Of a DNA stretch of 25,935 nucleotides, positions 426 through 24,962 are shown piece by piece. The stretch's first letter is position 1; each line of letters starts with the position of its first letter. The notes under the pieces are model-generated. The model did no database searches. It was not told the DNA's origin and saw only the letters and a program-made list of their open reading frames with translations. A program made the position numbers and the translations under genes. Source of the stretch: a virus. The DNA lies in IMG/VR virus record IMGVR_UViG_3300045933_000005, positions 1 through 25,935 of that record. One strand, written 5' to 3'.

Positions 426-480
426 GCTCAACCCACGTTCTGTGGGCTAAGGCAAGCAAGCCGTGCAACGCGGCAACCGA

Positions 481-6089: not shown

Positions 6090-9000
6090 ATGCAAGAGAC
6101 ACTACTGCCGGTAGTTGAAGAGGCAGAAGTAGAACAGTCCCTCCTTCCAGAAGTACAAACTCCCACTCAAGTTGTTCCTAAGAACGTTGCTGAAGTAGCG
6201 ACGCAGTTGGCGCTCGCCCATGATCCGGAGCAGTTCTATGCAACTTTCAAAAAGAACATTCGTGCTGTGGAAGCGGGTCAGCAGAACGCTCTCCTGGCTG
6301 ACATCCTGTACGAAGACGCTAAGGACGAGATTGTCGCAGCTCGTGCACAAGCCCTCGCCTTCGCCAAGGTACGCAATGAGCAAGGTCTCCGCTTTGCAGC
6401 GGAGAGAGCTGCTGAAGTCGAGAACAACCCACGCACACCCGAGCAGCATCCCGTCGAGGCGCAGACGGTTGCTGCAACACGGGCCATCGAAGCCGCTGCC
6501 TTCAACGAAGCTGTCAAGCGCTGGTCCAGCTTCAAGGATTTGCAAGACCGACTAGAGGGTGGGGCAGCCAACCTGGTTGTCCGCAACCTGGCAGCGAAGG
6601 CTGCGTCTGACCTCGAAGAGAAGGCCACGTTCTGGGACAAGCTGAAGAACGTCGCCTACTCCTTCCTTCCTGTCCTTAGCCGCAAGGAACAGACCGACCT
6701 CCTGGCCAAACACTTCGGACGAGGCGGCTACTTCGACAAACTCGGAGCCATCGAAGACATCCGCGAAATGATGGCGGTGCTGTCCCCGGCTGAGCAACAG
6801 AAGCTCATCGAGGCAGTGGCGAAGGACGACAGCATCAAGAACCCCGCCACCAAGGCGGACATTCTGCAAGCACTCGCGTCGTTCTCTGGGAAGGAAGAAA
6901 CAATTGAGCGAGTGACGGAGCTGTTCAACGTGACAGCTGTCCTCGACGTCTATTCCATCCTCTCGCACGTCATTCGGAAAGGGATGCCCGCCAGGGTGTT
7001 GCAGGATGTGGGCGGTGAGAAAGCCGCAGGCAACGCTGTGGCTGACGATCTCCTCGCCAAGACTGGCAGCACTGGCCTCACCGATCCGGAACTGGTGGGG
7101 CGTGCCGTTGCTGCTGGCAAGCTGCCGTTCGACATTGACCCCGCTGCTGCCACCGGCCTCAACAGCACGGTACAACAGGAGTTGAGGAAGAAGTACAACG
7201 ACCTCATCGATTCCGTCAACTCTCGTCTGTCCAGCTCAGGGATGTCGAAGGACGAGATGGCAACGGCTGCTGCGCAGATTCGTGACAGCTACATGCAAGC
7301 GACGGACAAGAGCATCCACTCCGTGCGCTTCGGGGAAGCGAGCGTAGACGGGCTGCAAGTCACGCTGTTCAAGCAGGACGTGAGCGGGCGTGTCTTCCTG
7401 TCGAAGGAAGCAGCTGAGGCAGCAGCCAAGGCCGACGGGCTGGTGAACTACAAGGTGGTACCGGCTAACGCTGCTGACGAGGTGCTGAGCGTTCCTCGTC
7501 GCAACATCGGGTTCGACGACATTGACGACCCCAATGCTGGTCGCGCTCTCACTCGCGAAGAACTGAGGGTGGAAGTCGAAGCCCTCAAGCAAAACGACTT
7601 ACCCGCACTGAAGCGGTTGGAGTCGCAGCTCAAACGCGACATCGACGAAACCTGGCGTACAGCTGCTGAGTACGACCTGGACCCAGTGGTGTCTGCGGGA
7701 ATACTGGAGCAAGGACTCCAGCGCATCAAAGACCTCCGCAACATGGTGGGGAAGATTCGGAATGAGCAGCACCTCGACGCGTGGTTGAAAGGGTTCAACG
7801 ACCTGCACCAGTTTGACAGCAAGGGGTTCCTCGTCGCTGGTGGAGAGCGTGCAGGCAAGGCTCGCATTGAAGACCTAGCGGCTCACTTTGCAAAAGGTGA
7901 GACGTTGTACGTCAGTCCTAAGTTCGATCCCCAGTTCGCAAAGCTGTTGAAAGCGTGGAGACAGATGTTGGGTCTCCAGCACCAACGTCTCGTCCTGCTT
8001 GACCCTGACGACCTGGCTCTTTACGGCAAGCAGATAGACGTCAACACTCGACAGATGTCGGCGTCCGCAAAAGGACTGCACGCGTGGGAGCCTGAGCTTA
8101 GGTCGTGGTCTATGGTTGTCAGTCGGAACGAGAGTCCCGTCGCACAACTGCAAACTGTTGCTCACGAGTTGGGCCACCACTTCGACGAAACTGTGTTGAG
8201 GCATGTTCTTAAGAACCAGCGGCTACAACTGCTGAAGGACTACCTCGCCTGGAAACAAGTGCGAGGAGGTGAGAACGCTGTCACAGGAGCAGCGAAACAA
8301 ACTCAAATCAGCGAAGACCTGGCGCGCATGTTGGCTACGGGCACAGATGCCGACGCGCCCATGAGTGAGTGGTTCAAGAAGCTGACCCCGCATTCACAGG
8401 CGTGGTTGTCTGACTTCCCTGAGTTTTGGGCAGATCAGTTTGCCAAGTTCATGCTCACTGACGCAAAGCCTGCCAATGCTCTCGAACGCTTCGTTAAAGA
8501 AGCTGTTGAAAAACTAAAACAGTTTTATGAACTGGTAAGAGCAGCGTTCTCAGCTGAGCTGAAAGGAGTTGATCCTTCTAAACCTCTCCCGACTGTCGAA
8601 GCGTTCTTGCGGCAACACATCGAGAACGTTCGCACGGGTAGGTTCTCGTTGCAGGAGTCAATGCCGGTCCACCTTGACTCGGCTAGGGGTCTGCAAGCCA
8701 TCAAGGTGGAGGGCAAGCCACACATCAAGGCCAAGCTCCCTGGCTTCCTCATTCAGATGGAACGCACCGACCCCTTCAGCTACGCTGCTGTCGGGAAGTT
8801 CAGCGACAGGGACATTGCGTCGATGCCCTTCATGGGTGTGGACCCGAAGCACCGTGCGTCTGAGCAAGCTGTCGAAGCTCGTGTCGTAGGTGTGCACGGC
8901 GAGGCGATGGTGAAGAAGGCGCTGAACGACTTCATCGATCCGTTCTTCAAGAAACTCAATCGCGCAGAGAAGCAGCGAGTGGAAGCTGTGCTACGTGACG

Positions 9001-11732
9001 GAGATTCCTACAGCAATGCTGGTGGAGTAGGACGTGAGTTCACGGCGATGGAGTTGTTGGCTCGTGGCCTCTCTCAAGACGAGGTGGCTGCCTACTTCGC
9101 TGCCCGCCAAGTTCGCATGGCTTCCTACTACATCCGCAACGGTGAGCTGGTGCGCCACATGAGGGCGCAAGGACTGAAGGAGCTGGAGATTGATGGTCAG
9201 CGCATGGCTGGCAGTGTTGTGCCTGCTCCGTCTGAGAAGGTGTGGTCTACAGTCACGAAGGAGATGGTGGACGGTAACACTCTCGCAGCCAACCAGAAGG
9301 TAGTGAGGCTGGCGCAACCCACCGAGATCGACGGCAAGCTGCGACAGCTCGTCGTGGTGGATGAGAAGGCGAAGGTGAGGGACGTCACCACAGCGCTGTC
9401 CTACCGTCCTGGTGAGCACGCTCGTATCTACTCGGACGAATACTTCATCGTCAGTAAGCAGGTGAAGAACGTCGACGATAAGGACACGGTGGTCACGGAA
9501 GTTGTGCGTACAGCGGCGTCTCCTCGTGAGGCGGAGGAGTTCATCGCTGCGGTTAAGCAGGGCATCAACGTTCTTAAGAACAACCCTGGCGACACAGCGA
9601 AGCTACAGCAGGCGGTGGGACGCCACTTCGACGTGGATGAGTTCACTGCTGCGCACAAGGCAGGGGAGTTTGACAACCTCGCAGACCTCTCCTACCACTT
9701 CACCCGCAACCAAGAGGAGTATCTGAACGGTTCAGTGCAAGAGGCGCTGGCCTACGGTCGGCTCTTTTACAGCGAGAGGAAAGAGCGCATCTGGTCTGTC
9801 GACAGGAGCAGGGAGAACACCCTCTCTCCGTTCGAGAGCTTGGAGCGCGAGATAAGCAACGTCTCCCGTGTCGCCAACATCACGCAGTGGCGTGAGCAGA
9901 TGGTCAGACGGTGGATGAACACCTTCGGTGACCTTCTTCCCCAACGCACGGGTGATGACGTGGCCGACTTCTTCAGCGCTGCTGATGCCCACTTCACCAA
10001 GCCAGGTGACAGCACAGCGTTTGCTCAGCGCACCCACCGCTACATCATGCGGCAGGTGGGACTGCGCACGCAGGAGGAGAGGTATTACGCGGAGGTGACC
10101 CGTTCCTTCACGGAGAAGTATTTCCAAGGGAACGAACGCATCGAGAGTATTGGGGCAAAGATCAGGCAGATGGGCGTGCTGTCCTTCATCCGCAACGCCA
10201 ACTTCAACCTGACGTTGGGGATGTTCAACCCTGCGCAGCTCATCGTACAGGCTAACGGAGCTGCCACTGCTCTCATCCTGTCCCCGCTGCACGGACTCGC
10301 TGCTGCGAAGACTGTGCCGCTGCTGCGCATGGCACTCATGTCCGATAACCCCGAGGTGTGGAAGTTCTTCAGCAAGGTGGACAGTGCGCTGTTCGGTAAC
10401 AGTGAGGAGTTCACCAAGCTGGTCAAGGCTGTGCGTCAGACAGGCATCATCGACAACCTGCGCAGCACTAGCTTGTACAACCTGGAGGACGGGAAGCTCA
10501 ACGTCTTCGGGGGCTACCCGCGTCGGGTGTGGGGACAACAAGCGTTCTTTTTTAATAGAGGGGAAGAGTTTGCTCGTTTGGTTAGCTTTGATGTTGCTCG
10601 TCGTGAGTTTATATCTGCCAACCCTGGCGTCGATTGGACCAGCAAGGAAGCGCTTGCTCAAATCATAGTGCGTCAGGATGACCTGACACAGAACATGACG
10701 AGGGCCAACCTCGCCCGCTTCCAAGAGGGAGCAGCATCCATCCCGTTGCAGTTTGCTCAGTACAACATCAAGCTCGCAGCGAATGTGTTGAGTGCCTTGC
10801 TAGGCAAGGGCGAGGGTAGGGGCTTCACCAAAGGTGAGGCGCTGAGGCTACTGGCCGGTCACTTGGTCCTGTACGGAGCTGCGGGTAACGGCATCGCATC
10901 TCTGGTGGACGAGCTGCTGCCTGACGACACGAAGAAGAGTATGTCCGTGGAAGCCAAGCAATACATGGCGCAAGGTTTGATTGCTGGTCTGGTGAACAAC
11001 GTAGCCCAGTGGTTCACCGGGGAGTCGATGAACGTGGCAGTGGGTTCCCGACTGGGTTCGTTCGACTACTACCAGAAGCTGGCTGACGCTGTCTTCAACG
11101 ACCCTAAGAACATCTACCACGCGCTCCTCGGACCCACGGTGAGCACGGCTAAGCGCATCGGCATCGTGGCTGACGTCGCCAAGCTGTGGGCCACCGATCC
11201 TGAGCTGACCGGCACGGACATCCTCGAAGGGTTGTCGCACATCACCACTGAGCAAGTCACTACGCTGCGTAACGCAGGCAAAGCCTACCTGTTCATGGTT
11301 CACCAAGGGAAGATGCTCGACAAGAACGGTGTCGCCATCTCTCAGCTGTCGCCTAACGAAGTGTTGGCGCAGGCGTTGGGCTTCCAGCCCACAGCTGCGG
11401 TGGACGTGCACAACCTCATCACGTCGAAGAAGAAGCACAGCGAAGCGCTCGATGAAATCGCGCGCCTGGTGTTCAAGGTGCAGCAGGAGATCATCACAGC
11501 TCAGCTGAATGGAGATTCAAAGCGTGCTGAGGAACAGCGCAAGTTGCTGATGGCCTTGTGGCCTAAGAACGTGGGCGACTTGCAGGAAGTGCAGCGTCGT
11601 GTCCGTGATCGCCTCTATCCCTACAACACTGAGTTCCAGAAACTCTTGGGTGACTACATGTGGAAAGGTCACACCTACGAACAACCGCTGGTTGTAACGC
11701 AACCGCCTAGGAAACCTGATGGCTCGCAATAG
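6090..11732 (+). CDS. Giant internal virion (ejection) protein with HELGH zinc-protease motif
   Basis: 1880 residues. Starts three bases after the gp14-like gene and is one of the proteins expected to travel with the DNA into the cell. Long helical, Ala/Glu/Lys-rich stretches fill residues 1-250. A zincin motif HELGHH lies at residues 692-697, with a candidate third ligand in PEFWADQFA (Glu778). A hydrophobic section around residues 1363-1420 (SFIRNANFNLTLGMFNPAQL onward) could insert in or cross a membrane. The C-terminus is helical. T7 gp15/gp16 are the positional counterparts but carry no such protease. Codon choice becomes T-rich for about 25 codons at 10545-10619. The 3' end overlaps the next gene by 14 bases. 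Confidence 0.75.
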   Translation: MQETLLPVVEEAEVEQSLLPEVQTPTQVVPKNVAEVATQLALAHDPEQFYATFKKNIRAVEAGQQNALLADILYEDAKDEIVAARAQALAFAKVRNEQGLRFAAERAAEVENNPRTPEQHPVEAQTVAATRAIEAAAFNEAVKRWSSFKDLQDRLEGGAANLVVRNLAAKAASDLEEKATFWDKLKNVAYSFLPVLSRKEQTDLLAKHFGRGGYFDKLGAIEDIREMMAVLSPAEQQKLIEAVAKDDSIKNPATKADILQALASFSGKEETIERVTELFNVTAVLDVYSILSHVIRKGMPARVLQDVGGEKAAGNAVADDLLAKTGSTGLTDPELVGRAVAAGKLPFDIDPAAATGLNSTVQQELRKKYNDLIDSVNSRLSSSGMSKDEMATAAAQIRDSYMQATDKSIHSVRFGEASVDGLQVTLFKQDVSGRVFLSKEAAEAAAKADGLVNYKVVPANAADEVLSVPRRNIGFDDIDDPNAGRALTREELRVEVEALKQNDLPALKRLESQLKRDIDETWRTAAEYDLDPVVSAGILEQGLQRIKDLRNMVGKIRNEQHLDAWLKGFNDLHQFDSKGFLVAGGERAGKARIEDLAAHFAKGETLYVSPKFDPQFAKLLKAWRQMLGLQHQRLVLLDPDDLALYGKQIDVNTRQMSASAKGLHAWEPELRSWSMVVSRNESPVAQLQTVAHELGHHFDETVLRHVLKNQRLQLLKDYLAWKQVRGGENAVTGAAKQTQISEDLARMLATGTDADAPMSEWFKKLTPHSQAWLSDFPEFWADQFAKFMLTDAKPANALERFVKEAVEKLKQFYELVRAAFSAELKGVDPSKPLPTVEAFLRQHIENVRTGRFSLQESMPVHLDSARGLQAIKVEGKPHIKAKLPGFLIQMERTDPFSYAAVGKFSDRDIASMPFMGVDPKHRASEQAVEARVVGVHGEAMVKKALNDFIDPFFKKLNRAEKQRVEAVLRDGDSYSNAGGVGREFTAMELLARGLSQDEVAAYFAARQVRMASYYIRNGELVRHMRAQGLKELEIDGQRMAGSVVPAPSEKVWSTVTKEMVDGNTLAANQKVVRLAQPTEIDGKLRQLVVVDEKAKVRDVTTALSYRPGEHARIYSDEYFIVSKQVKNVDDKDTVVTEVVRTAASPREAEEFIAAVKQGINVLKNNPGDTAKLQQAVGRHFDVDEFTAAHKAGEFDNLADLSYHFTRNQEEYLNGSVQEALAYGRLFYSERKERIWSVDRSRENTLSPFESLEREISNVSRVANITQWREQMVRRWMNTFGDLLPQRTGDDVADFFSAADAHFTKPGDSTAFAQRTHRYIMRQVGLRTQEERYYAEVTRSFTEKYFQGNERIESIGAKIRQMGVLSFIRNANFNLTLGMFNPAQLIVQANGAATALILSPLHGLAAAKTVPLLRMALMSDNPEVWKFFSKVDSALFGNSEEFTKLVKAVRQTGIIDNLRSTSLYNLEDGKLNVFGGYPRRVWGQQAFFFNRGEEFARLVSFDVARREFISANPGVDWTSKEALAQIIVRQDDLTQNMTRANLARFQEGAASIPLQFAQYNIKLAANVLSALLGKGEGRGFTKGEALRLLAGHLVLYGAAGNGIASLVDELLPDDTKKSMSVEAKQYMAQGLIAGLVNNVAQWFTGESMNVAVGSRLGSFDYYQKLADAVFNDPKNIYHALLGPTVSTAKRIGIVADVAKLWATDPELTGTDILEGLSHITTEQVTTLRNAGKAYLFMVHQGKMLDKNGVAISQLSPNEVLAQALGFQPTAAVDVHNLITSKKKHSEALDEIARLVFKVQQEIITAQLNGDSKRAEEQRKLLMALWPKNVGDLQEVQRRVRDRLYPYNTEFQKLLGDYMWKGHTYEQPLVVTQPPRKPDGSQ
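6174..6185. repeat. Dispersed palindrome, CTAA-centred copy
   Basis: GTTCCTAAGAAC near the start of the giant ejection-protein gene, read as V-P-K-N. Confidence 0.85.
8205..8216. repeat. Dispersed palindrome, TTAA-centred copy
   Basis: GTTCTTAAGAAC, perfectly self-complementary, just after the HELGH protease codons, read as V-L-K-N. Confidence 0.85.
9570..9581. repeat. Dispersed palindrome, TTAA-centred copy
   Basis: GTTCTTAAGAAC, third exact copy within the giant ejection-protein gene, again read as V-L-K-N. Confidence 0.85.
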
Positions 11733-14142
11733 TTTGAACTACGCTGAAGTTCTACCCGACGTCAACTACACGCCTAGCAGGGCAGGGGAACACCTTACCC
11801 AAGCTGGTGCGTTGGAGGGGAAGGCTAAGGCAATGGACGTCCAGTCCGACGCTCAGCTTGGCTTGTTCCTAGGAACAACGGCCATCGAGGCTGGCAAGGG
11901 CTACCTGAAGAGTGAGGAGTCGAAGGAGATTAAGTCCGACCTCGACAAGCTAGAAGACTTCGGCGACGGGGCCAAGGCTGCGGCACAGGTTCCTCAACGC
12001 GAGGCCAACATTGTCGAGGCTGTTGGCACCTTCATGGGCGCGGCTCCCAATTCCCCGGAAGTGGGAATGATGATGGCTGACGCCAAGCGCCACGTCGAAG
12101 CCGCTAAGCAAGGCATCCTGACCAAGGACGAAGTCATTACCCGAGTCGCTGCTACTGTGAAGAAGTACAGCGCGATGATGCCTGGGTGGGCGTCTGACTT
12201 CCGCAAGGTGGCAGCGGAGCTGACCGGCATTGCCAACATCGAGACGCTTCAGATTCACAACGCTCTCACTCAGAAGAGTGCGAGGGAGAAGCAGGCGGAG
12301 CGCATTGCCCAAGCGAACATCGAGTTCCAGAAGCAGGTGAGCACTGCCGTAGGCGAGCCTATCGAAGCCCTCACGCCTGCCCACTACAACCTCTACCGTG
12401 TGTCACAGCAGGGGAAGATTGCCCGTGAACGTCTTGACAACGAGATCAAGATGAAGAACCTGGTACAGGAGGATGCCGACCAGGCGTACGGGCAGATGGT
12501 GTCGCTGGACATTGCGACTGGGGTGTCCGACCTCATGCTCGACTTCGGGAAGGTGTGGTCTCTCAACTCCGACCCGAAGAAGTTCATCGACAGCCAACAG
12601 GCTGGCCTCGAACTGTCCGCCAAGATTGGCATCCTTCATCACAGGTTGGCACAGAACATACGCAGCATGACTACGCCTCGTGGTGACAGGCCCGCTATGT
12701 CAGCGAAGGAAGCTGACGCTCGCCTTTCGCGCCTCGACACGGACATGAAGAACTATCAGGAGATGGTCAAGACAGCTGAAGGTAGGAACATGTTCCTGTC
12801 CATCGCTAAGCACGCCAACACCAGTGCTGAGATGATGATGAACAACTTCATGCTGGCCAATCCCCACGTTGCTCAGCTGAGTAAGTTGGGCGTGTTCCCG
12901 CCGTTGTTCCAAGCTCGCGTCACTCTCGACAAGAAGGAGTTTGAAGCGAGGTTTGGTAAGAGGTTGGGCGACACAATGGAAGCGCTGATGAACCCCACCA
13001 GCCAAACGCAATACGCTGGTGTGTTCGGGGGCATGGTGTCAGGCACTGGACCCACTCCTGCCGACACTGCTCGTGTCGATCCAAAGCTCGGCGAAGTGCA
13101 GATGCGGGATGGGGTGGAGTTTCTTAAGAACAGCGACAACCTCAAGCCCGATCCTGAGAGCCAGGACAAGTTCGCCAACACCTTGAGTTCGGTGGTGAGA
13201 AGCCTGCGCTACGGATTCGAGACCGACTTGAAGGCGTTCAACGAGCTGGTCAGCAGCCCTGCCCGTAAGGAATACATCAGCTCGATGCCCTCTGAGGTGC
13301 GAGCCAAGGCTCTAGCTCCTGCTCTACCTGAGCTTCAGATCGCTGCGGTTAACGCCATGCAGAGCGTCACTGAAGCCCTCGACAAGTACAACAACTCGAA
13401 GGAGTTGAACGTGCTGGCAGGGTGGAGGTTGGAAGCAGTCCTCGATCCGGTGACGGAGCGAGTTCGCATTCAGGAAGTGAGAGCCGGACAGTCGGCACTA
13501 CCGCCGGAACTTCGTCGGATGGGTGTTCGAGGAGGGGAGAAGTTTCCTACACGCACTCGGTTCAACGAGGCGAGTGACGCAGCCACGACAGCCAACAAAG
13601 CAGCAGCACGTCTGAACCAAGCGCTGGAAGCGTACGGCAGCGCTGCTTCCCTGGTATCTGGCAAACCCTTCGCCCTTGATGACCTGCGGTCTAGGGCTTA
13701 CGAGGGCATCCAGAACAGGAAGACTGACCTGGTTGAAGGAGCGTTCCTGATCCAGAGGCAGCCTGCTGAGACGGTAGACCCCACTGTTCTTAGGAACATG
13801 ATTGACGCTCTCGGGAAGGCGGAGAGCAACGGGAACACCAAGGCGGTAGGGGATGGCGGCAAGGCCGTAGGAGCGTGGCAGATGCACCCTGAAGCAATGG
13901 TGGACGCTGGATTCAAACCTGAGGACAGGAACGATCCTGAGAAGTCCCGCGCAGCGGCAACCATCTACTTCGGGAAGAAGTTGCAGGAGTACGGAGGGGA
14001 TGTGGTGAAAGCCATCTCTGCCTGGAACATGGGAAGTGCAGGTTTCCAACGTCACTTAGAACGACATGGTGATCTGTGGATGATGGAACTACCTGATGCA
14101 ACAAAAGGATTGTTGAAGAGGTTTAAAGAACACCTTAAATAA
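11719..14142 (+). CDS. Internal virion protein with C-terminal lytic transglycosylase (SLT) domain
   Basis: 807 residues. The first about 680 are helical and charged, like other ejection-core proteins. The last about 115 form a soluble-lytic-transglycosylase domain. The catalytic glutamate is Glu702 in GKAESNG, followed by GAWQMHPEA and the C-terminal AISAWNMGSAGF block. The domain cleaves the glycan strands of peptidoglycan so that the ejected proteins and DNA can cross the wall. In T7 the SLT domain is at the N-terminus of gp16; here it is at the C-terminus of the smaller partner. The start at 11719 lies inside the preceding gene. Codon use becomes AT-rich over the last about 30 codons. Confidence 0.85.
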   Translation: MARNSLNYAEVLPDVNYTPSRAGEHLTQAGALEGKAKAMDVQSDAQLGLFLGTTAIEAGKGYLKSEESKEIKSDLDKLEDFGDGAKAAAQVPQREANIVEAVGTFMGAAPNSPEVGMMMADAKRHVEAAKQGILTKDEVITRVAATVKKYSAMMPGWASDFRKVAAELTGIANIETLQIHNALTQKSAREKQAERIAQANIEFQKQVSTAVGEPIEALTPAHYNLYRVSQQGKIARERLDNEIKMKNLVQEDADQAYGQMVSLDIATGVSDLMLDFGKVWSLNSDPKKFIDSQQAGLELSAKIGILHHRLAQNIRSMTTPRGDRPAMSAKEADARLSRLDTDMKNYQEMVKTAEGRNMFLSIAKHANTSAEMMMNNFMLANPHVAQLSKLGVFPPLFQARVTLDKKEFEARFGKRLGDTMEALMNPTSQTQYAGVFGGMVSGTGPTPADTARVDPKLGEVQMRDGVEFLKNSDNLKPDPESQDKFANTLSSVVRSLRYGFETDLKAFNELVSSPARKEYISSMPSEVRAKALAPALPELQIAAVNAMQSVTEALDKYNNSKELNVLAGWRLEAVLDPVTERVRIQEVRAGQSALPPELRRMGVRGGEKFPTRTRFNEASDAATTANKAAARLNQALEAYGSAASLVSGKPFALDDLRSRAYEGIQNRKTDLVEGAFLIQRQPAETVDPTVLRNMIDALGKAESNGNTKAVGDGGKAVGAWQMHPEAMVDAGFKPEDRNDPEKSRAAATIYFGKKLQEYGGDVVKAISAWNMGSAGFQRHLERHGDLWMMELPDATKGLLKRFKEHLK
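11865..11876. repeat. Dispersed palindrome, CTAG-centred copy
   Basis: GTTCCTAGGAAC, perfectly self-complementary, near the start of the transglycosylase gene and read in another codon phase (F-L-G-T). Confidence 0.85.
13120..13131. repeat. Dispersed palindrome, one-mismatch copy
   Basis: TTTCTTAAGAAC in the transglycosylase gene matches 11 of 12 positions; the first base differs. Confidence 0.5.
13786..13797. repeat. Dispersed palindrome, TTAG-centred copy
   Basis: GTTCTTAGGAAC at the entry to the SLT domain, read as V-L-R-N. Confidence 0.85.
14113..14140 (+). promoter_or_regulatory. Possible sigma70-like promoter before the lysozyme gene
   Basis: In the AT-rich tail of the transglycosylase gene, TTGAAG (14113-14118) and TTAAAT (14135-14140) are separated by 16 bases, 15 bases upstream of the lysozyme ATG. 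The match is only partial (about 4 of 6 at each box). It would give the endolysin its own transcript with a very short leader. AT-richness alone could produce this, so confidence is low. Confidence 0.22.
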
Positions 14143-14623: not shown

Positions 14624-14830
14624 TCAAGCCCCCTTCTCGGGGGCTTTTCTTTTGAGCACCCACCGGGTGGCTGCCACGATGAGGCCAAGCCACGCAGCGA
14701 TGAGTACCAGCTCCAAGGTGACCTCGAACGCTTCACCGTGAAGGCTGTGGCCGAGGGGTTTGAGTACCTTCCACAATCCAGCTAGGAGAATGAGGAAGGT
14801 GCAAGAGATGACTAGAGCTTTGTTCGACAC
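14624..14830 (-). CDS. Putative holin (two transmembrane segments)
   Basis: 68 residues from a GTG start with GAGG upstream. Two hydrophobic helices (about residues 5-23 and 37-57) are joined by a short polar loop, and the protein ends in a basic tail (RWVLKRKAPEKGA). This is the class II holin pattern, forming inner-membrane holes that release the endolysin. The nearby cytoplasmic-type lysozyme needs such a partner. It lies on the opposite strand to the lysozyme, at the far end of the replication operon. Its final codons form the stem of the shared terminator. Family identity is not certain; it could be another small membrane protein. Confidence 0.6.
   Translation of the reverse strand: MSNKALVISCTFLILLAGLWKVLKPLGHSLHGEAFEVTLELVLIAAWLGLIVAATRWVLKRKAPEKGA
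14626..14653. terminator. Shared terminator at the convergence of the two operons
   Basis: An eight-base-pair stem (AAGCCCCC with GGGGGCTT), loop of five, then TTCTTTT on the plus strand. It ends the virion/lysis transcript just after the lysozyme. On the minus strand the same stem encodes the last codons of the holin and is followed by TTGACTTT, a weaker T tract, so it may work in both directions. Confidence 0.85.
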
Positions 14831-14851
14831 GGGTGTACCTCACTGTCGATT

Positions 14852-14873
14852 TGTGGTAGGTCAGTCTACCACA
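14852..14873. promoter_or_regulatory. Perfect 8-bp hairpin between the 76-aa gene and the holin
   Basis: TGTGGTAG (14852-14859) pairs exactly with CTACCACA (14866-14873) across a six-base loop. It overlaps the stop codon of the 76-residue gene and sits 22 bases upstream of the holin start in the minus-strand transcript. No T tract follows, so a standard terminator is unlikely. An RNA processing site, or control of holin translation, is possible. Confidence 0.5.
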
Positions 14874-15091
14874 GGTTCCGTACCTAGTTGTTTACGGAAA
14901 TATTCCGACGGACTGTAGGTGACAGGGTTGCCGTAGGTGTCGGCAAGCACACAGCCCACCTCAGCCACGGTGTCACACACGACCAGGGTCACCACTTGAG
15001 TGGTGTTGTAGACGCTGTCGTGCTTTACCACCCTCACCAGATACTTCCCGTTGTCCGTCTTCACAATTGACACGTCAGTACGTTCAGTCAT
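14861..15091 (-). CDS. Hypothetical protein (76 aa)
   Basis: Starts at ATG 15091, with AGGAAC upstream as likely ribosome binding site; this AGGAAC is the right half of a dispersed palindrome (15097-15108). The protein is soluble and probably beta-rich at the N-terminus (DVSIVKTDNGKYLVRVVKH), with two cysteines and a polar C-terminus. I recognise no family. It lies downstream of the cloverleaf element and upstream of the holin, so it may be a late gene of the minus block. Confidence 0.6.
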   Translation of the reverse strand: MTERTDVSIVKTDNGKYLVRVVKHDSVYNTTQVVTLVVCDTVAEVGCVLADTYGNPVTYSPSEYFRKQLGTEPVVD

Positions 15092-15096
15092 TGTTT

Positions 15097-15108
15097 GTTC
15101 CTAGGAAC
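15097..15108. repeat. Dispersed palindrome, CTAG-centred copy, the only intergenic one
   Basis: GTTCCTAGGAAC lies six bases upstream of the 76-residue gene and four bases from the cloverleaf element. It could act as operator and supplies the AGGA of the ribosome binding site. Confidence 0.88.
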
Positions 15109-15111
15109 ATT

Positions 15112-15204
15112 GGGGACGCGGGACACGGTTTATCAGACCGCTGCTCGACAGGGGTTGCAAAGCCCCAGTAGCCAATCTCCGAACCCCGGAGACTCCCGGT
15201 CCCC
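15112..15204. ncRNA. Compact cloverleaf-forming element, not a recognisable tRNA
   Basis: Plus-strand pairing. The closing stem is 112-117 with 199-204 (6 bp), one bulged G, then 119-123 with 194-198 (5 bp), offsets from 15000. Hairpin A is 126-129 with 137-140. Hairpin B is 141-145 with 167-171 (one G-U), an asymmetric bulge, then GGGG 151-154 with CCCC 163-166. Hairpin C is 176-180 with 188-192, with a seven-base loop. Linkers are only 2, 0, 4 and 1 bases, the order seen in tRNA. The T loop lacks TTC, the closing stem is too long and no CCA follows, so it is not an ordinary tRNA. It fills the only sizeable intergenic gap. A G-U pair favours plus-strand RNA, but both strands can fold. Confidence 0.55.
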
Positions 15205-15212
15205 CTCGTTGT

Positions 15213-15431
15213 CTACTGTACCTTAGCGATGCTGTAGCCGGCGTTGGTGAAGTTCACCGGGTTGCGGCTGATGTTGTCCCACCAACCACGTCCTTCAAAA
15301 TCACTCGTCGATGCTTTGCCCTTCGCCACCAACTGCCGGATGTGCTTCCGCAGGAACTGACGCGCTCTCTCGTAGCTGTCGAACGCCGTTCCCTTGAACA
15401 TCACCTTCTTGTTCTTAAACACCTGATACAT
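15213..15431 (-). CDS. Hypothetical protein (72 aa)
   Basis: I take ATG at 15431 (MYQVFKNKK) in preference to a TTG seven codons upstream, because AAGAAG precedes this ATG and the overlap with the DUF3310 gene is then only 17 bases. The protein is basic, with a helix SYERARQFLRKHIRQLV and an aromatic C-terminal part (GRGWWDNISRNPVNF). This suggests a small nucleic-acid-associated or adaptor protein like those found in many phage replication operons. No named family is recognised. It is translated with the DUF3310 and RNR genes. Confidence 0.65.
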   Translation of the reverse strand: MYQVFKNKKVMFKGTAFDSYERARQFLRKHIRQLVAKGKASTSDFEGRGWWDNISRNPVNFTNAGYSIAKVQ

Positions 15432-15645
15432 GCTTCTTGCTCTCCAGTTCAATGAGGAGATCGAGAAAGTGTCTCGCTTTCTTCAAGTCCTCAATTCCAT
15501 TTTTGTGTTTCCAACGGGTGACGTACTTCACCACTGCACCCTCGGCGTAGCCCAGGTTGTTCGCGTGAATGAACTCGATGGGCTGGATGGCGCAGCTTGT
15601 GTAGTGGTTGCCACCAACCTGTGTGTCTAGTGCCCTAGCTTCCAC
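15415..15645 (-). CDS. DUF3310 family protein
   Basis: 76 residues. I choose the GTG at 15645 because AAGGAGG lies five bases before it; a GTG at 15651 overlaps that site. The family signature is complete: VGGNHYTSCAIQPIEFI, then NNLGYAEGAVVKYVTRW, then GIEDLKKARHFLDLLIEL. DUF3310 proteins are common in phage nucleotide-metabolism operons and are sometimes annotated as nucleotide kinase-like, but their biochemical role is not established. The gene overlaps the end of the RNR gene by 11 bases, consistent with joint expression. Confidence 0.9.
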   Translation of the reverse strand: MEARALDTQVGGNHYTSCAIQPIEFIHANNLGYAEGAVVKYVTRWKHKNGIEDLKKARHFLDLLIELESKKHVSGV

Positions 15646-17305
15646 AGACACCTCCTTTCCCGCTAATCAAACAGATGTCGTTCTCTTCGTACACCACACC
15701 CTTGTGCTTCACTGCTTCGTTGTAGTCGCACTCGACTAGCGGCTGACCTCCTCGACTTCCATCTGGATAACACGTAAACCCTCGTAGTCGGGGAGCGTAC
15801 TGCGATAGGGTGAAAGCAAAGCGCTCAACAGTTCCCTCGTTGTTACCATCGGTTCCCCATCCGGGTAAGTTAATGGTCGAGGAGATAGACATGTCAACGT
15901 AATCTTGTACGTCCGCTTGGAATTTGATTCTTCGCCTTGGGTCCAGGGCGAGTTGGCCTGCTGTCTCAACGTTATCGGGTCTAATCCCATAGGTCTTGAT
16001 CAGGTGGTCTGCTGTCGAATCTACAACATACTCGTAGTGCCAGCGCGTTCCGTCTTTGAGATAACGTCGCTTATATGCCACCGCGTACAGAGGCTCGATG
16101 CCAGTTGTAGTAGCAGCAAGAATACCAATGGAGCCAGTTGGAGCCACTGCCCGGTAAGCAACAGGTTTACTAAGAAATAACCGCTCACAATGCTCGTTAG
16201 CACTACGTTCGCTGTACTCGCGGTAGATGCTGAGCCAAGAATGAAGTTCCGGTCCCACTTCATAACGCAAACCTCTCTTGAGCAGCCACTCATGGATGCC
16301 CATTAGTCCTAGTCCGAGTCGTCTGTTCTTCTCTCTTACTGCTGTGATTTTGTTTGTAGGGAGTACAGCTCGTACAGTGCCGCAAACGAGGAACTTACTA
16401 GCGAGTTCAACAACGGCTTGAAGCTCTCGAACGTCTGCAACATTGCCAATATGAACAGACCCAAGATTGCATACGTCGCTATCGTCGCTGCTAGTAACTT
16501 CAGTGCACGCATTGCGTAGTGTTTCATTCTGCTTGTCCCCTAAGTTGAAGCTAAACCCAGGTTCTCCCGTCATCAATGCCTGACGAACGTTCTCCAGAAA
16601 GACAGGGTTGCCAGCTAAGCCTGTTCCTAGGAACGCAGCGTCGTCGTAGTTGACGCTGATGTTCGTCATGTCTAAGGGACATGGGAAGTTGAAGTTGTCC
16701 TGCTTTACTTGCCAGAGCGTTTGCCCCGTAGTGCCCACCGCCTTGTCGTGCCAGTTTTTGGCGGTGAGGAACGCCGGGATGTCGTCGTGCGTCCAGTGTA
16801 GCGACGCATAGATCGCACTCCTTCGGCTTCCCCCTTGCATGACATTCCTGCCGATCTCGTTGATCGCATGCATGAGTGGGATCGGCCCACTAGCTTTACC
16901 ACCAGTGCGGCCAAGAAGACGGCCACCAGGACGGAACACAGAATAATCAATGCCGATACCTCCACCTAAACAGAGACAACTCATTGCGTCGTGAGCCAAG
17001 CGTGCCCACTCCTCTCGCGTATCTTCTTCACCTTTGAGTAGGTAGCAATTGTTGTACGCTTTAAGAGGACGCCCTGCGTAGTAGAGGTAACGTCCGCCAG
17101 GAATGAACTTCATCTCAGCAATGTATTCGGCGAGCTGACGCCGATCCCCCTCGCTCATCAGCGGGTGTTCTGTACCTCCTCTGGTTCCGCACACGTCGTC
17201 TACGACTCGGTGTGCTAGGTTGTCCCAACTGTCGGCTGAGCCGAAGGCGTACTTCTGGTAGAAGATGTGCTCAGCGAACGGGGTCTTGAATCTATTTGTT
17301 TGCAT
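15635..17305 (-). CDS. nrdJ: Ribonucleotide reductase, probably class II (adenosylcobalamin-dependent)
   Basis: I take ATG 17305, which gives 556 residues, because 30 codons of the longer frame lie inside the HNH gene and look non-homologous. Active-site features are the redox cysteine pair Cys87 (NNCYLL) and Cys279 (VCNLGS), the N-x-C-x-E radical site Asn265-Cys267-Glu269, the substrate loop APTGSIGILAATTTGIEP, and C-terminal cysteines (DICLISGKGGVCGS). It makes deoxynucleotides for phage replication. No small radical subunit gene is present and no ATP cone is evident, which favours the B12-dependent class II enzyme. Class cannot be proven by reading alone. It is shorter than the approximately 740 residues of the Lactobacillus enzyme. 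Confidence 0.88.
   Translation of the reverse strand: MQTNRFKTPFAEHIFYQKYAFGSADSWDNLAHRVVDDVCGTRGGTEHPLMSEGDRRQLAEYIAEMKFIPGGRYLYYAGRPLKAYNNCYLLKGEEDTREEWARLAHDAMSCLCLGGGIGIDYSVFRPGGRLLGRTGGKASGPIPLMHAINEIGRNVMQGGSRRSAIYASLHWTHDDIPAFLTAKNWHDKAVGTTGQTLWQVKQDNFNFPCPLDMTNISVNYDDAAFLGTGLAGNPVFLENVRQALMTGEPGFSFNLGDKQNETLRNACTEVTSSDDSDVCNLGSVHIGNVADVRELQAVVELASKFLVCGTVRAVLPTNKITAVREKNRRLGLGLMGIHEWLLKRGLRYEVGPELHSWLSIYREYSERSANEHCERLFLSKPVAYRAVAPTGSIGILAATTTGIEPLYAVAYKRRYLKDGTRWHYEYVVDSTADHLIKTYGIRPDNVETAGQLALDPRRRIKFQADVQDYVDMSISSTINLPGWGTDGNNEGTVERFAFTLSQYAPRLRGFTCYPDGSRGGQPLVECDYNEAVKHKGVVYEENDICLISGKGGVCGS
16623..16634. repeat. Dispersed palindrome, CTAG-centred copy
   Basis: GTTCCTAGGAAC within the RNR gene, read on the minus strand as F-L-G-T. 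Confidence 0.85.
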
Positions 17306-17669
17306 GGCGTCTTGCTCTTTCCTTCGAGCTTTTGTTTTTGTGACACGGTTTGCACAGCACCTGTAGCTTCCGGGCTTCGACGTACAACCGGGCAATGAAG
17401 GTGTCCCAGTTGGTGAAGCCTTGGCGTGTTGCCACTACAGGTTGCTTATGATCGACCTGAACGTCTTTGGCAGGGAAGTCATGTTGGCAGGAAGCGCAGC
17501 GATAGTGTGATGCCAGCTTCCCGCTCTTAGGATTGACGCGCTTCTCAGTGAAGGCGTTCCTAAGAACATCGAACTTCGGTGGCCAACGTCGGAATGCAGC
17601 TCGCAGGGCGCTAACAACAAAGCTGCGATAACGAGCTTCGGTCCAGCGCCCACCATTTCTAGTAGTCAT
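17292..17669 (-). CDS. HNH endonuclease
   Basis: 125 residues. The HNH/zinc-finger core is visible: YRCASC, then the VQVDHKQPVV strand with the catalytic His, then LQVLCKPCHKNKS with the second CxxC-like pair and the final His. A basic N-terminal region (SALRAAFRRWPPKFDVL) likely binds DNA. Such small free-standing HNH proteins cut DNA and sit among replication genes in many podophages. It overlaps both neighbours (11 bases with the membrane peptide gene and 14 with RNR), so it is an integral operon gene rather than a recently inserted homing gene. A homing origin is possible but unsupported. Confidence 0.88.
   Translation of the reverse strand: MTTRNGGRWTEARYRSFVVSALRAAFRRWPPKFDVLRNAFTEKRVNPKSGKLASHYRCASCQHDFPAKDVQVDHKQPVVATRQGFTNWDTFIARLYVEARKLQVLCKPCHKNKSSKERARRHANK
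17556..17567. repeat. Dispersed palindrome, CTAA-centred copy
   Basis: GTTCCTAAGAAC within the HNH gene, read on the minus strand as V-L-R-N. Confidence 0.85.
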
Positions 17670-17832
17670 CCACTAAGGTGATGAACGCCCACCAAACAGC
17701 GGCGACGACTGCCCACACGAAGGCGTAAACATTGAGAAACACTTCGAGTGGGGGCTTTTCGGCAAACCCCATACCAGCAATAACCGCCGCTGTTACGGAG
17801 ATTAGAATGCACCTAGCAACCAGAGACTTCAT
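17659..17832 (-). CDS. Tiny membrane protein (57 aa)
   Basis: ATG at 17832 overlaps the stop of the 55-residue gene as ATGA, and its end overlaps the HNH start by 11 bases. Two hydrophobic segments (about residues 4-24, ARCILISVTAAVIAGMGFA, and 31-54, including YAFVWAVVAAVWWAFITL) are separated by a short polar turn. This predicts a two-pass inner-membrane peptide. It could be a second holin-like or antiholin-like protein, but it is far from the lysis genes. Function unknown. Confidence 0.65.
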   Translation of the reverse strand: MKSLVARCILISVTAAVIAGMGFAEKPPLEVFLNVYAFVWAVVAAVWWAFITLVDDY

Positions 17833-17996
17833 TCTCCGCTCTCTAGGTCTTCAACGCCGAACTTGTTCTTGTTGTCGTACACTCGGTCAAAGAACCTGTC
17901 GAGGACGTCTTCAAGCTCAATTTCGAGTAGGTCCACCAAGTCGTGCACATCCTCCACTTGGCGGGATACAAGGTCTTTCAGGTCTTCTGCTCTCAC
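17829..17996 (-). CDS. Tiny acidic helical protein (55 aa)
   Basis: Starts with GTG at 17996, overlapping the stop of the phosphoesterase gene (GTGA), and ends in ATGA with the membrane-peptide gene. The sequence is acidic with a regular heptad-like pattern (LVDLLEIELEDVLDRFF), predicting an amphipathic helix or coiled coil. The perfect overlaps on both ends and absence of another gene here support it. It might bind the neighbouring phosphoesterase or a host protein, but that is conjecture. Confidence 0.65.
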   Translation of the reverse strand: MRAEDLKDLVSRQVEDVHDLVDLLEIELEDVLDRFFDRVYDNKNKFGVEDLESGE

Positions 17997-20204: not shown

Positions 20205-22207
20205 GCGGCTTCCTTCATTGCTAGGTCTTCATTCCAATCTACTTGCTCTCCCCAAGACCTACCGTAGCTGACGTTCACATTGAACGGCATGTCTAAGGTG
20301 TGTCCGAAGGTCTCTTGAAACACTTGCACCACGCTCTCCAACACGCTCTTGATGAGAGGTAGGGCTTCTTGCAGCGCACTCTTGTGACAGTCGAGCATCA
20401 CGTTGTCGTGCACTGTGTTAATGAGTAGGCATTTGTTCCGCAGTTTCTTGTTGTTCTTAAGAACACGGAACAGCTTGCCGAACATCATTGGCACGATGTC
20501 CGCTGTGGCAAAGCTCTGCACTGGGTAGTTCTTGATTTCGGTGGGACTGAACGCGCACTCTCCCTTCAACCACAACGAAGGATACTCACGGAAGTGAAGC
20601 ACTCGGTGCGTGTAGTCGTTGACGTAGTACGACTCGCCGTAAGGCAGGTCTGTTTCCGTGTCACGTCTCCCTGCGTGGTAGCGGCACGACGACACGTCCG
20701 CAATCAAGTTCTCGTGGAACCGCTTCACGCCGGGGTATCGAGCGTAGAACGCCTCGATGAACCCCTTCGCTTGACCGATAGTGATGCCACCTTGCTCACT
20801 GATAGCCTTTGGTCCACCTCCGTACACCAGGCAGAACGAGCAGCGCTTGAAGGGGCGGCGTTCCTCTTTGGTAGGTGCCCTGCTGAACAACGCCTTGTAC
20901 AACTCGGTGTGCATGTCCACACCTTTGCGTATGTCCTCCTTCAGCCTCTCGTCACCGGACAGGATGGCAAGCGCCACCATCTCCAGCTGGCTGTAGTCAA
21001 CATCGATGATGACTCCGTCGTCTCCCCAACGAGAGATGTAAGCGTTCTTGATGTTGCTCTTGCTCTTGTCCGTGATGTTCTGAAGGTTGGGTTCGCTGGA
21101 TGTCAGCCGACCAGTGACGGACAAACATTGGTTCAGGTTGCCGTGTATTCGCCCATCAGGGAACGTCAACTCAATGGCGTTCTTGTAGTAGGTGTTAACC
21201 TCTTTCGACAACTCACGATAGGCACGAAGCTCGCTGGCAATGATGCGAGCTGTGGGGGTGGTGTACTTACCATACGTGTCGTCTATGACTCGACCAAGCA
21301 CCGCGTCTGTCGTAGCCCACGTACCGTTCTTCAAACGTTCACTGAGGGCAACTTGGGCTGTGCCGTGTACCTCCTTGGTGACGGTGCGCTTGCGATGTTT
21401 GGGCTTCCCGTTCTTGTAGGTGCCGACGCTTTCATCAATCATCACCTTCACCTCGCCGCCGAACAAGGCGACACCTGCGTCCTTAGGGCTGGTGTGTTTG
21501 AGATTGGGGTGAACTCGATGAAACAGTGCTGTGAGACGTTTGTCGACTTCCGCAAGAACTGCGGTCTTGATCTTCAGTTGTTCGTTGAGGAAGTCGACAT
21601 CAACGGCCATGCCGTTGTACGTCATCTCGATGCAAGCGAGCTTGGCGTCCATCTGGTTCCAGATGAGGGGCAGCATGCCCCGCTCCTCAGCCGCTGCATA
21701 CTGACCGACGAACACCTTGTACGTGTTGTCAACGTCAGCCTTCTGGTACTGCGCCAGCACGTCAGGATCAGCGGTGTCAGCTCCCTCGCCCTTAGCGAAG
21801 TGCTCCTTCATCTTGTCGTCTTTGAAGGTGCCGCCGTACTTGACCGACACCTCATCGAGTGAAGCAAACTTCGCTTGTTGTGCAGTGAGCAGGTACTCAG
21901 CTAGTTGCGTGTCCCACACAAGGCACTTGCCTAAGTCGTTCTGCTCGAAGTAGTCGTGCTTGAGAAGGTAGTGGATGTCGAAGCCGACGTTGTGCCCAAT
22001 GATGAGCGTGGGGTCTGCGCATGAAGGCGGCTTGTACGCCTCTTCGTACCTTGCCGTGAAATACTCACCATCACTTGTTCCCCCTACACATTTCGTACCT
22101 ATCGACACAATGTAGTTGTGCGGCCAGAACGGGCTGGCTTCATTACCAATGGGACTGCGCATCGTGGTCTCAACGTCAGCCACGAATCCGCTTGCGTCAC
22201 TCTTCAC
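20201..22207 (-). CDS. DNA polymerase, family A (T7-like) with 3'-5' exonuclease
   Basis: 668 residues, GTG start overlapping the helicase stop (GTGA). Exonuclease motifs are Asp11-x-Glu13 (ADVET), GHNVGFDIHYL and YQKADVDNTY. Polymerase motif A is DYSQLE (Asp404). The O-helix is RRPFKRCSFCLVYGG, with Lys454 and Phe458 at the Pol I Phe762 position. Motif C is VHDNVML: Asp601 is present, but the usual following Glu is Asn602. The length is close to T7 gp5 (704). It copies the phage genome with the neighbouring helicase and primase. Phe at position 762, rather than Tyr as in T7, suggests strong discrimination against dideoxynucleotides. Confidence 0.96.
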   Translation of the reverse strand: MKSDASGFVADVETTMRSPIGNEASPFWPHNYIVSIGTKCVGGTSDGEYFTARYEEAYKPPSCADPTLIIGHNVGFDIHYLLKHDYFEQNDLGKCLVWDTQLAEYLLTAQQAKFASLDEVSVKYGGTFKDDKMKEHFAKGEGADTADPDVLAQYQKADVDNTYKVFVGQYAAAEERGMLPLIWNQMDAKLACIEMTYNGMAVDVDFLNEQLKIKTAVLAEVDKRLTALFHRVHPNLKHTSPKDAGVALFGGEVKVMIDESVGTYKNGKPKHRKRTVTKEVHGTAQVALSERLKNGTWATTDAVLGRVIDDTYGKYTTPTARIIASELRAYRELSKEVNTYYKNAIELTFPDGRIHGNLNQCLSVTGRLTSSEPNLQNITDKSKSNIKNAYISRWGDDGVIIDVDYSQLEMVALAILSGDERLKEDIRKGVDMHTELYKALFSRAPTKEERRPFKRCSFCLVYGGGPKAISEQGGITIGQAKGFIEAFYARYPGVKRFHENLIADVSSCRYHAGRRDTETDLPYGESYYVNDYTHRVLHFREYPSLWLKGECAFSPTEIKNYPVQSFATADIVPMMFGKLFRVLKNNKKLRNKCLLINTVHDNVMLDCHKSALQEALPLIKSVLESVVQVFQETFGHTLDMPFNVNVSYGRSWGEQVDWNEDLAMKEAA
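20453..20464. repeat. Dispersed palindrome, TTAA-centred copy
   Basis: GTTCTTAAGAAC near the 3' end of the DNA polymerase gene, just upstream of motif C, read as V-L-K-N. Confidence 0.85.
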
Positions 22208-23466
22208 AGCGATCCCCGATACCGTGCAATTTCTGGTTCTATTTCCACCTCGAACATCCCGTGACGCAGCTTCGGATCAACACCAGGACCGCCGTTGAGT
22301 TTGTTCTTAGGAACATGAATGAACCTGGTGTTGGGGTTGGGCAAGCTGATGTCACGACCGATGGCAATGATGGCGTCAGCCTCAGCAGCCTTGTCCGTCT
22401 TGCTGCCACGGAGCTGGTTCATCTGGATGAAGCGCACCCCTTCAGCTGAGCCATCAGCCTGTGATCCTGCGATGACTGGCCCGTACTTGTGCGACAACTC
22501 TCGTGCCCACAGGTAGAGCTTGCCGAGTCGCAAGTCGTCTCGTTCTTCCTTGTTGAACCCACGCACCTTGTCGAGTAGGTCGAACACGATGATGGCGGGG
22601 TTGTGGTCACGGAACACAGAGTTCAGTTCGTCAACGCCTAGGTCCGTACCAACGTCGGTGATGAGGATTCGCTTTGGATCGCCGTTCATCAATCGGGTGT
22701 ACTCAGCTTCAGACGTGGTTAAGTCAGCCAGCATGTCAGCCTGCGTCAGCCCGAGCACCGATTGCATAACCCGAGCGTTCACCTTCGCACTGCGTTCCTC
22801 GTTGTTCACCCACACAACAGGGCGAGCGTCCCTAATTTGGGTAGCCATATACCCAACTTGGTCAGCGAAGAACGTGGTCTTGCCCACCTCAGGGCGGGCA
22901 GCAACGATGGTGAAGTCGCCTTGGCGTAGTGGGCCTAGGCTCTTGTTCAACTCACCGAGACGCCAGTTGTATCCAGGTACAGCCAGGGCAGCAGCGGTGT
23001 CAGCAAGGCTGGCCGACACAAACAGGTCAGCCGGATCGAACGCACGCTTGACGGCGTGCTCGCACTCCTCAACCAGCTTCACCATGTCGGACAGCTTGTC
23101 CTCGTCCGTTTTGGTGTGTGCTACAGCAGCCGCTCGAATCTGCTCGATGTAGTCCTTGACGATGTACGTGTGCAACACCGTCTCAGTTTGAGGACTGGTG
23201 ACCGGAGTGTGCTCCTTCAGTTTCCTGAAGATGGTATGGTAGGACTCAGCGTTGGTCTTTGTTATCTGGTGGTGTCGGTAGGAGAAGAAGTAGGCTTTGA
23301 AGTCATCCCAGTTGATGGTGACAATTGTCTTGTCGCTCTTGTAATAGGGGTCAAGGGTGTTGAAGACAAGCCGCGCTTCTTTGCCGAGAACGTGTTCCTG
23401 TACGTAGGGTTTGAATCGGGTGAACTGTGCTCGATCTCCAAGAATAGTCAGTAGTTCAATGTCCAC
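22204..23466 (-). CDS. Replicative DnaB/gp4-like DNA helicase
   Basis: 420 residues from GTG 23466. A helical N-terminal region of about 150 residues is followed by a RecA-type motor: Walker A ARPEVGKTT (190-198), VVWVNNEE (H1a-like, Glu223/224), and Walker B AIIVFD (Asp296) followed by LLDKVRG. The C-terminal loop SQADGSAEG is followed by a QMNQLRGSKT segment and DAIIAIGRD. It unwinds DNA at the phage fork as a hexameric ring. The primase is a separate gene directly upstream that overlaps it by 11 bases, whereas T7 carries both in one gp4 protein. Confidence 0.93.
   Translation of the reverse strand: MDIELLTILGDRAQFTRFKPYVQEHVLGKEARLVFNTLDPYYKSDKTIVTINWDDFKAYFFSYRHHQITKTNAESYHTIFRKLKEHTPVTSPQTETVLHTYIVKDYIEQIRAAAVAHTKTDEDKLSDMVKLVEECEHAVKRAFDPADLFVSASLADTAAALAVPGYNWRLGELNKSLGPLRQGDFTIVAARPEVGKTTFFADQVGYMATQIRDARPVVWVNNEERSAKVNARVMQSVLGLTQADMLADLTTSEAEYTRLMNGDPKRILITDVGTDLGVDELNSVFRDHNPAIIVFDLLDKVRGFNKEERDDLRLGKLYLWARELSHKYGPVIAGSQADGSAEGVRFIQMNQLRGSKTDKAAEADAIIAIGRDISLPNPNTRFIHVPKNKLNGGPGVDPKLRHGMFEVEIEPEIARYRGSL
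22303..22314. repeat. Dispersed palindrome, TTAG-centred copy
   Basis: GTTCTTAGGAAC near the 3' end of the helicase gene, read on the minus strand as V-P-K-N. Confidence 0.85.
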
Positions 23467-24460: not shown

Positions 24461-24962
24461 TCTTAGGCGTTGCTTCTAAAGGGGAAGCACTCGGATTGTG
24501 ATTCCGGTTGTCGCGGGTTCGAGTCCCGTCGTCCACCCCAAGTTTCTCATCGGAAACAACGACTAACGGAACTGATCTTTCGTTCCAAACCACTGTGTGT
24601 CTAAGATATTTGTTGGTGTCTAACGTCCACGGCTCAGGCTCCAGGGGTTGTTCCAACAACCCTGCGTCCTTCATCACCCTCGACAATGCAGCCATGAACC
24701 TCTTCTTTCCGAATCGGTTGTACATCATGCGCATGTTGCGCTCGATAATTTGTTCGTATGTGCCTCTGCCTTCGTACTGAAGTTGAGACACCTTATCCTT
24801 TAGCTCCATGCTATCGCAGGGGTTTAACCCTGGTGACTCCTCGTCTGTAGTGTTTGCTGGTTGTGCTGCTGTTGGTGTGTCCGAGTAGCGCTTGCGCATC
24901 AGCCACTGTTCGACTATCTGATCCGGACTTAGCCCGGATATCATGCTCACGAAATCGCTCAT
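24393..24962 (-). CDS. Unknown protein whose C-terminal coding region contains attP
   Basis: 189 residues from ATG 24962 with GGAG 11 bases upstream; the first 152 bases overlap the end of the integrase in another frame. The middle shows a helical segment (ELKDKVSQLQYEGRGTYEQIIERNMRMMYNRFGKKRFMAAL), given here as positions about 53-95, with many Arg/Lys/Met residues, perhaps DNA-binding. Residues around 143-160 read DGTRTRDNRNHNPS, the well-known false peptide of a translated tRNA on the opposite strand. The C-terminal 50 residues are therefore shaped by attP, and integration would swap them for host-derived codons. No family is recognised. It could be an excision/control protein. Confidence 0.55.
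   Translation of the reverse strand: MSDFVSMISGLSPDQIVEQWLMRKRYSDTPTAAQPANTTDEESPGLNPCDSMELKDKVSQLQYEGRGTYEQIIERNMRMMYNRFGKKRFMAALSRVMKDAGLLEQPLEPEPWTLDTNKYLRHTVVWNERSVPLVVVSDEKLGVDDGTRTRDNRNHNPSASPLEATPKNIPVYYDEVSGSLKLGDKPKGS
24486..24540 (+). other. attP: attP core: 3' part of a host tRNA-His gene
   Basis: The plus strand carries the anticodon arm TCGGA-TTGTGAT-TCCGG (anticodon GTG, histidine), the variable loop, a T arm with GGTTCGAGTCC, and an acceptor strand ending CGTCCAC-C-CCA with C73 and encoded CCA. The 5' half of the tRNA is absent, so this is not a functional tRNA gene. Its position 3' of the integrase is that of an attachment core which restores the host tRNA on integration. The exact left border of identity cannot be set without the host sequence. 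Confidence 0.85.

Follow-up and report, generated by a model that had tools for sequence, protein, structure and literature searches.

The cloverleaf-shaped element at 15112-15204 of the window (the whole stretch of DNA analysed, 25,935 bases long, from the IMG/VR virus record IMGVR_UViG_3300045933_000005) is best read, with a probability of about 0.62, as a rearranged, non-decoding relic of a tRNA gene lying in the minus-strand transcript. The case for a tRNA origin rests mainly on the combination of a tRNA anticodon arm inside the element with its position in a slot where the phage's clade keeps tRNA genes, in the direction that those genes take. The palindrome, which had been noted just before the element, is not a local feature of it but one member of a genome-wide array of LexA-box-like sites, and this array is probably the more important feature of the two.

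The source phage is apparently temperate and podovirus-like. Virion genes and an endolysin occupy the plus strand to ~14.6 kb and are followed by a minus-strand block encoding a class II ribonucleotide reductase, an HNH nuclease, a Cas4-like exonuclease, DNA polymerase A, a helicase, a primase and a tyrosine integrase. Between g79 and g76, both small minus-strand ORFs, lies the cloverleaf, in a 121-nt gap (15092-15212) that is real but is not the only large one, as had been claimed, since the ORF list gives gaps of similar size at 426-532 and 17670-17992. A strong terminator-like hairpin with a T-rich tail also follows the first virion ORF (478-520, plus strand). Searches with g79 gave no match in reference bacterial genomes or phage records, and an 807-aa protein used as a query found no close relatives. 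The features of the locus, in window coordinates, are as follows.

14861-15091, minus strand: g76, small ORF downstream of the cloverleaf, with a homologue at the same place in contig L002
15112-15204, minus strand: whole element, putatively tRNA-derived, with the lowest folding energy of any 93 nt in the window; a four-way junction on the minus strand
15112-15123, minus strand: closing helix, 3' strand TCCCGCGTCCCC, from the minus-strand minimum free energy (MFE) fold
15125-15141, minus strand: anticodon arm, 5 bp and a 7-nt loop CTGATAA (anticodon GAT, U33, A37, A38), recognised by the 18-mer CAGCGGTCTGATAAACCG and the profile score given below
15142-15146, minus strand: GAGC plus A, matching a tRNA D-stem 3' strand (positions 22-25) and A26; part of the 22-nt profile hit and identical in the slot tRNA-Thr of contig L084
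15143-15172, minus strand: hairpin B, in the D-arm position, with a GCU/AGC stem and an expanded, hairpin-forming D-loop (GGGG-CTTTGCAA-CCCC), from the MFE fold and reading of the sequence
15173-15174, minus strand: TG, which would be U8-G9 by reading of the MFE fold
15175-15193, minus strand: hairpin C, a 7-bp helix GTCTCCG/CGGAGAT with loop GGGTT, which would take the acceptor-stem position if the order were permuted; from the MFE fold and a weak end-to-end fit to a permuted model
15194-15204, minus strand: closing helix, 5' strand GGGGACCGGGA, from the minus-strand MFE fold
15213-15431, minus strand: g79, small ORF upstream of the cloverleaf and marker of the slot in relatives

Folding bore out the four-way structure, with a bulged 11-bp closing stem (6+5) and three hairpins. 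The plus strand of 15112-15204 folds with an MFE of -48.0 kcal/mol (z -4.40; 0 of 200 shuffles as good), the lowest energy in a scan of both strands that covered 17,228 windows of 93 nt, while the minus strand reaches -45.0 kcal/mol (z -2.45; 3 of 200 shuffles as good) and ranks fifth among distinct places in the same scan. The better plus-strand z-score counts against a relic of a minus-strand tRNA gene. Linker lengths of 2, 0, 4 and 1 had been given in the preliminary description, but the plus-strand MFE fold has linkers of 3, 0, 3 and 1, and the minus-strand fold has 0, 2 (UG), 1 (A) and 1. A G-U pair in hairpin B that exists only in plus-strand RNA had also been taken to indicate the strand. 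The pair is there, but wobble pairs do not choose between the strands because each strand's fold has its own, the minus fold containing two minus-only G-U pairs (the first pair of the 7-bp stem, and 27-43 of the anticodon stem).

The minus strand of 15125-15146 carries an intact tRNA anticodon-arm stretch, GAGCAGCGGTCTGATAAACCGT, of the Ile-GAU type. In the third minus-strand hairpin, a stem of GCGGT and ACCGT closes the loop CTGATAA, in which C32, U33, GAU, A37 and A38 are canonical, and the 5-bp anticodon stem, 7-nt loop, U33 and purine 37 of a tRNA are thus all found at 15125-15141. A profile of tRNA positions 22-43, built from 45 other tRNAs that included no Ile and no tRNA-Thr from the syntenic slot, gave this 22-mer 21.2 bits, the top score of the window; the runner-up had 15.0, and real tRNAs score ~18.7 at the median. 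As high a score was obtained in 10 of 8,015 whole-window shuffles and in 1 of 534,486 shuffles of the element. Counting against the relic is that the whole-window p for the arm alone is ~0.001 and that the homologous stretch is short (~22 nt).

Three further viral contigs contain the exact 18-mer, each time in an element of the tRNA-Ile(GAU) type. In one of these (L092) it belongs to a genuine tRNA-Ile(GAU), and in the remaining two (L090 and L091, picked out by the 18-mer search itself) it lies in a single degenerate tRNA-like piece, of which each contig has a copy and which directly adjoins a tRNA-Ile(GAU). In L090 (536-706), as in L091, this degenerate tRNA-Ile-like piece, whose GAU anticodon arm is intact, wraps the second tRNA-Ile(GAU) within a long outer stem, forming an unusual composite of tRNAs. 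The arm and the tRNA-Thr of L084 have GAGCAGCGGT and ACCG in common. A host tRNA-Ile was rejected as the source of the arm: the host match GAACACACCCCTGATAA (genome G043) is tRNA-Ile-like and has a different stem, and the matches to MAGs in that search were mostly not tRNAs.

The slot was located in relatives by homologues of g79, and the features found downstream of g79 on the same strand include tRNA genes in several of them. For example, the slot of L084/G022 holds a tRNA-Thr, that of L089, a distant relative, holds six tRNAs, and in G067 the order is g79, a box, tRNA-Asn, tRNA-Thr, a small ORF that resembles g76 by eye, and a terminator. These slot tRNAs have the same flanking genes and direction as the element. 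The slot of L002/G021 contains a plain hairpin followed by g76, that of L003/G002 a strong hairpin that is terminator-like in the plus direction, and that of G051 only a g76-like ORF (likeness by eye). The same cloverleaf was absent from every relative compared, most of the records being fragments, and a DNA search of phage records with the element and its surroundings gave no match. None of the relatives examined showed a form intermediate between a complete tRNA and the element, which counts against the relic. Two further features were seen in these phages: in the slot of L089 (4296-4430), a structured spacer that is not a tRNA and separates tRNA-Thr from tRNA-Lys, and, in the apparently complete 46.8-kb phage G067 (L184; 28131-28203 of the record), an ARAGORN-called tRNA with anticodon TTA, which would read the stop codon UAA and is a possible suppressor.

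The element itself cannot decode. CCA and a T-loop are missing from it, as the preliminary description stated; by reading, a T-arm with a TTCRANY loop is absent on either strand, and in place of a 7-bp acceptor stem with a free 3' end, discriminator and CCA there is a sole 7-bp helix closed by GGGTT. The suggested tRNA and Rfam checks were without a match, ARAGORN calling no tRNA at the element and Rfam returning no family at the gathering threshold, nor at E up to 10 (14780-15260). The element thus resembles phage-borne tRNA genes (RF00005) in having the slot, strand and neighbours of the relatives' tRNAs together with a canonical anticodon arm, D-stem 3' strand and A26, and is unlike them in its lack of T-arm and CCA, its expanded D-loop, its closed acceptor end and its blank ARAGORN and Rfam results. 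The earlier label of tRNA-like therefore pointed in the right direction, but the likeness belongs to the minus strand and comes from the anticodon arm and the tRNAs of the slot, not from the plus-strand outline.

If the element is a tRNA-gene relic, an ancestral gene would have kept one anticodon arm of the tRNA-Ile(GAU) type, the D-stem 3' strand and A26, while the D-loop would have expanded into a hairpin and the T-arm, T-loop, free acceptor end and CCA would have been lost, the 3' half of the tRNA gene being gone. Flanking sequence would then have turned into inverted repeats that close the whole into a four-way junction, and short template-switch inversions of old tRNA sequence would yield such repeats. 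The function most likely left to it would at most be that of a stem-loop between cistrons of the early minus transcript, where it would keep the g79 and g76 messages apart or protect them, a role suggested by the plain hairpins that L002 and L003 have in the same slot. These two relatives likewise make an RNA element of the minus transcript, one of the roles first put forward, a possible one. The high stability and compact inverted repeats could reflect a selected function rather than decay. A relic of this kind would illustrate a route from a phage tRNA gene to a stable, non-decoding RNA element in which the anticodon arm is kept, and it warns against labelling such folds new regulatory RNAs.

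Of most interest among the rival explanations would be a selected tRNA mimic, in which the minus-strand RNA would display the anticodon arm of a tRNA-Ile(GAU) on a scaffold that is closed and stable, as a decoy for an anticodon nuclease or for a protein that modifies or binds tRNAs, perhaps together with a second, Ala-UGC-like loop (CTTTGCAA) within hairpin B. The arm is canonical and intact although the ends of the tRNA are lost, the stability is exceptional and the hairpin B loop TTTGCAA also fits the YUNNNRA pattern; the element is a concrete candidate for such a mimic. A mimic is nevertheless unlikely: no other element built in this way was found, no nuclease or target is known, and L090 and L091, which keep the arm in another degenerate context, were selected by the search. 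The earlier proposals, a regulatory RNA read from the plus strand or an element acting as DNA (an origin or cruciform), draw on the better plus-strand z-score, a GNRA-type loop in plus-strand hairpin B and the terminator-like hairpin that L003 has in the slot in the plus direction. The TTGACA hexamer at 15067, noted earlier as lying just before the element in the plus direction, is present, as is the palindrome (15096-15109), but the hexamer lacks an acceptable -10 and a scan of 14780-15480 yielded 0 promoters and 0 intrinsic terminators (GC-rich stem and T run), leaving a plus-strand RNA from this hexamer without support. There is also no Rfam match, the tRNA evidence and the slot tRNAs are all on the minus strand, and nothing positive was found for a replication origin, which could not be an essential one because relatives lack the element; both proposals are improbable.

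Circularly permuted tRNA genes occur in red algae and archaea, and the element's junction linkers and helix order fit such a gene. It would be a tRNA-Ile gene opened in the T-arm, with the 3' acceptor strand preceding the 5' half and the transcript processed and circularised to give the tRNA. The linkers of the minus-strand MFE fold are tRNA-like in this order (T-acceptor 0, acceptor-D 2 = UG, D-anticodon 1 = A), the fold includes a 7-bp acceptor-like helix, and a covariance model built from 17 rotated real tRNAs aligns end to end (15119-15198, minus strand) with 9.7 bits. However, this score corresponds to E 0.016 over 1 kb and to E 0.42 over the window, where it ranks fourth and is not significant, and ARAGORN calls none of the rotated sequences. 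Unlike known permuted genes, the element is without T-loop halves and a discriminator-CCA stretch; it has no TTCRANY T-loop, its acceptor end carries a loop of just 5 nt and its variable region is 1 nt long. A permuted gene is therefore highly improbable, and because the T-loop, CCA and open acceptor end are missing the element was filed neither as a tRNA nor as a permuted tRNA. Inverted repeats that arose by chance in the GC-rich DNA between genes, combined with an accidental anticodon-like hairpin, would agree with the modest minus-strand z-score (-2.45) and with the whole-window p of the arm. Such a coincidence is very unlikely given the lowest energy in the 17,228-window scan, the rarity of the arm score among element shuffles and the tRNA slot of the relatives.

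The array to which the neighbouring palindrome belongs comprises the following LexA-box-like palindromes in the window, listed with the probable attachment site (strand is given where it applies).

1165-1178: palindrome at the same codon column in relatives
4592-4605: palindrome
6173-6186: palindrome, read as VPKN in the window and as VLKN or VPRN in relatives
8204-8217: palindrome
9569-9582: palindrome
11864-11877: palindrome
13785-13798: palindrome
15096-15109: palindrome TGTTCCTAGGAACA, 4 bp upstream of the start codon of g76
16622-16635: palindrome
17555-17568: palindrome
20452-20465: palindrome in the DNA polymerase gene
22302-22315: palindrome in the helicase gene
24492-24540, plus strand: 49 bp that match the 3' half of tRNA-His(GTG) exactly and lie next to the integrase; probably the attP core
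25371-25384: palindrome in the integrase gene

The core GTTCYTARGAAC occurs in 13 copies in the window versus 0.005 expected, and 14-mer sites at up to 3 mismatches number 14 versus 0.79 expected. Five relatives have 13-31 core copies, and the counts by record are 13 in G002, 14 in G001, 19 in G021, 22 in G022, 27 in G051 and 31 in G067, the element locus being common to G001 and G021. The overlap of its ends by 127 bp indicates that G067 is probably a complete genome. More distant relatives identified by the tail protein have 0 to 10 copies, and phages related by the reductase only have none in nearly all cases. Boxes are found every 1-2 kb, and in each of the records tested they were spaced more evenly than expected at random (P from 0.011 down to <0.00005). 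Nearly all sites are intragenic and in reading frame 0 or 2; in frame 1 the site would be a stop. In homologous genes with 28-75% protein identity, the site is found at the same codon column even where the encoded residues differ (VLKN, VPKN and VPRN; FLRT and FLGT), which points to a constraint acting on the DNA itself.

The 49-bp tRNA-His half has exact copies in Akkermansiaceae, other Verrucomicrobia and some beta- and gammaproteobacteria; an attP for a tRNA-Ile was ruled out, the attP-like core beside the integrase being this tRNA-His half. In four (G039, G042, G044 and G046) of nine verrucomicrobial genomes with this tRNA-His half, the exact sequence TGTTCYTARGAACA lies 14 bp upstream of a lexA start, and it is present in one or two copies per genome. 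The LexA domains PF01726 and PF00717 were confirmed in the protein of one genome, G039. On the basis of the attP and the lexA operator, the host is presumed to be a verrucomicrobium. The LexA consensus of Verrucomicrobia is reportedly a 14-bp palindrome, TGTTC-N4-GAACA, which the box beside the cloverleaf fits. No match to PF00717, PF01726 or PF01381 (S24, LexA and HTH_3) was found in the phage records searched, G067 being searched for PF00717 and PF01381. Together with the lexA-operator match, this leads us to propose, from sequence comparison, that host LexA may bind the candidate box array. There is an even chance that host LexA serves the clade during lysogeny as a silencer distributed over the whole genome and lifted by DNA damage, or that the clade titrates LexA in lytic growth. 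If host LexA does bind the boxes, the host SOS repressor would be a chromosome-wide silencer for the phage and not a single-promoter switch.

Two known systems offer partial parallels. The stoperators of cluster A mycobacteriophages are many short, asymmetric and oriented sites that are bound by a phage-coded repressor. They share with the present array the many operator-like sites throughout the genome, mostly in or between genes, whereas the sites described here are palindromic and agree with the lexA operator of the host, and neither an S24 nor an HTH_3 repressor turned up in the phage records searched. GIL01 is a temperate phage under the control of host LexA, with host SOS boxes at a promoter (PMC4551915). 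Like the present clade, in which no phage LexA was detected, it combines boxes for the host SOS repressor with the lack of a LexA of its own, but it has few boxes at one promoter, in contrast to 13-31 boxes running through coding genes. The papers searched contained no report of LexA with evenly spaced sites or stoperators, or with an intragenic array. In one verrucomicrobial genome (G042), the same SOS-type 14-mer also lies directly before a DNA methyltransferase-like gene (L118, 1501-1514).
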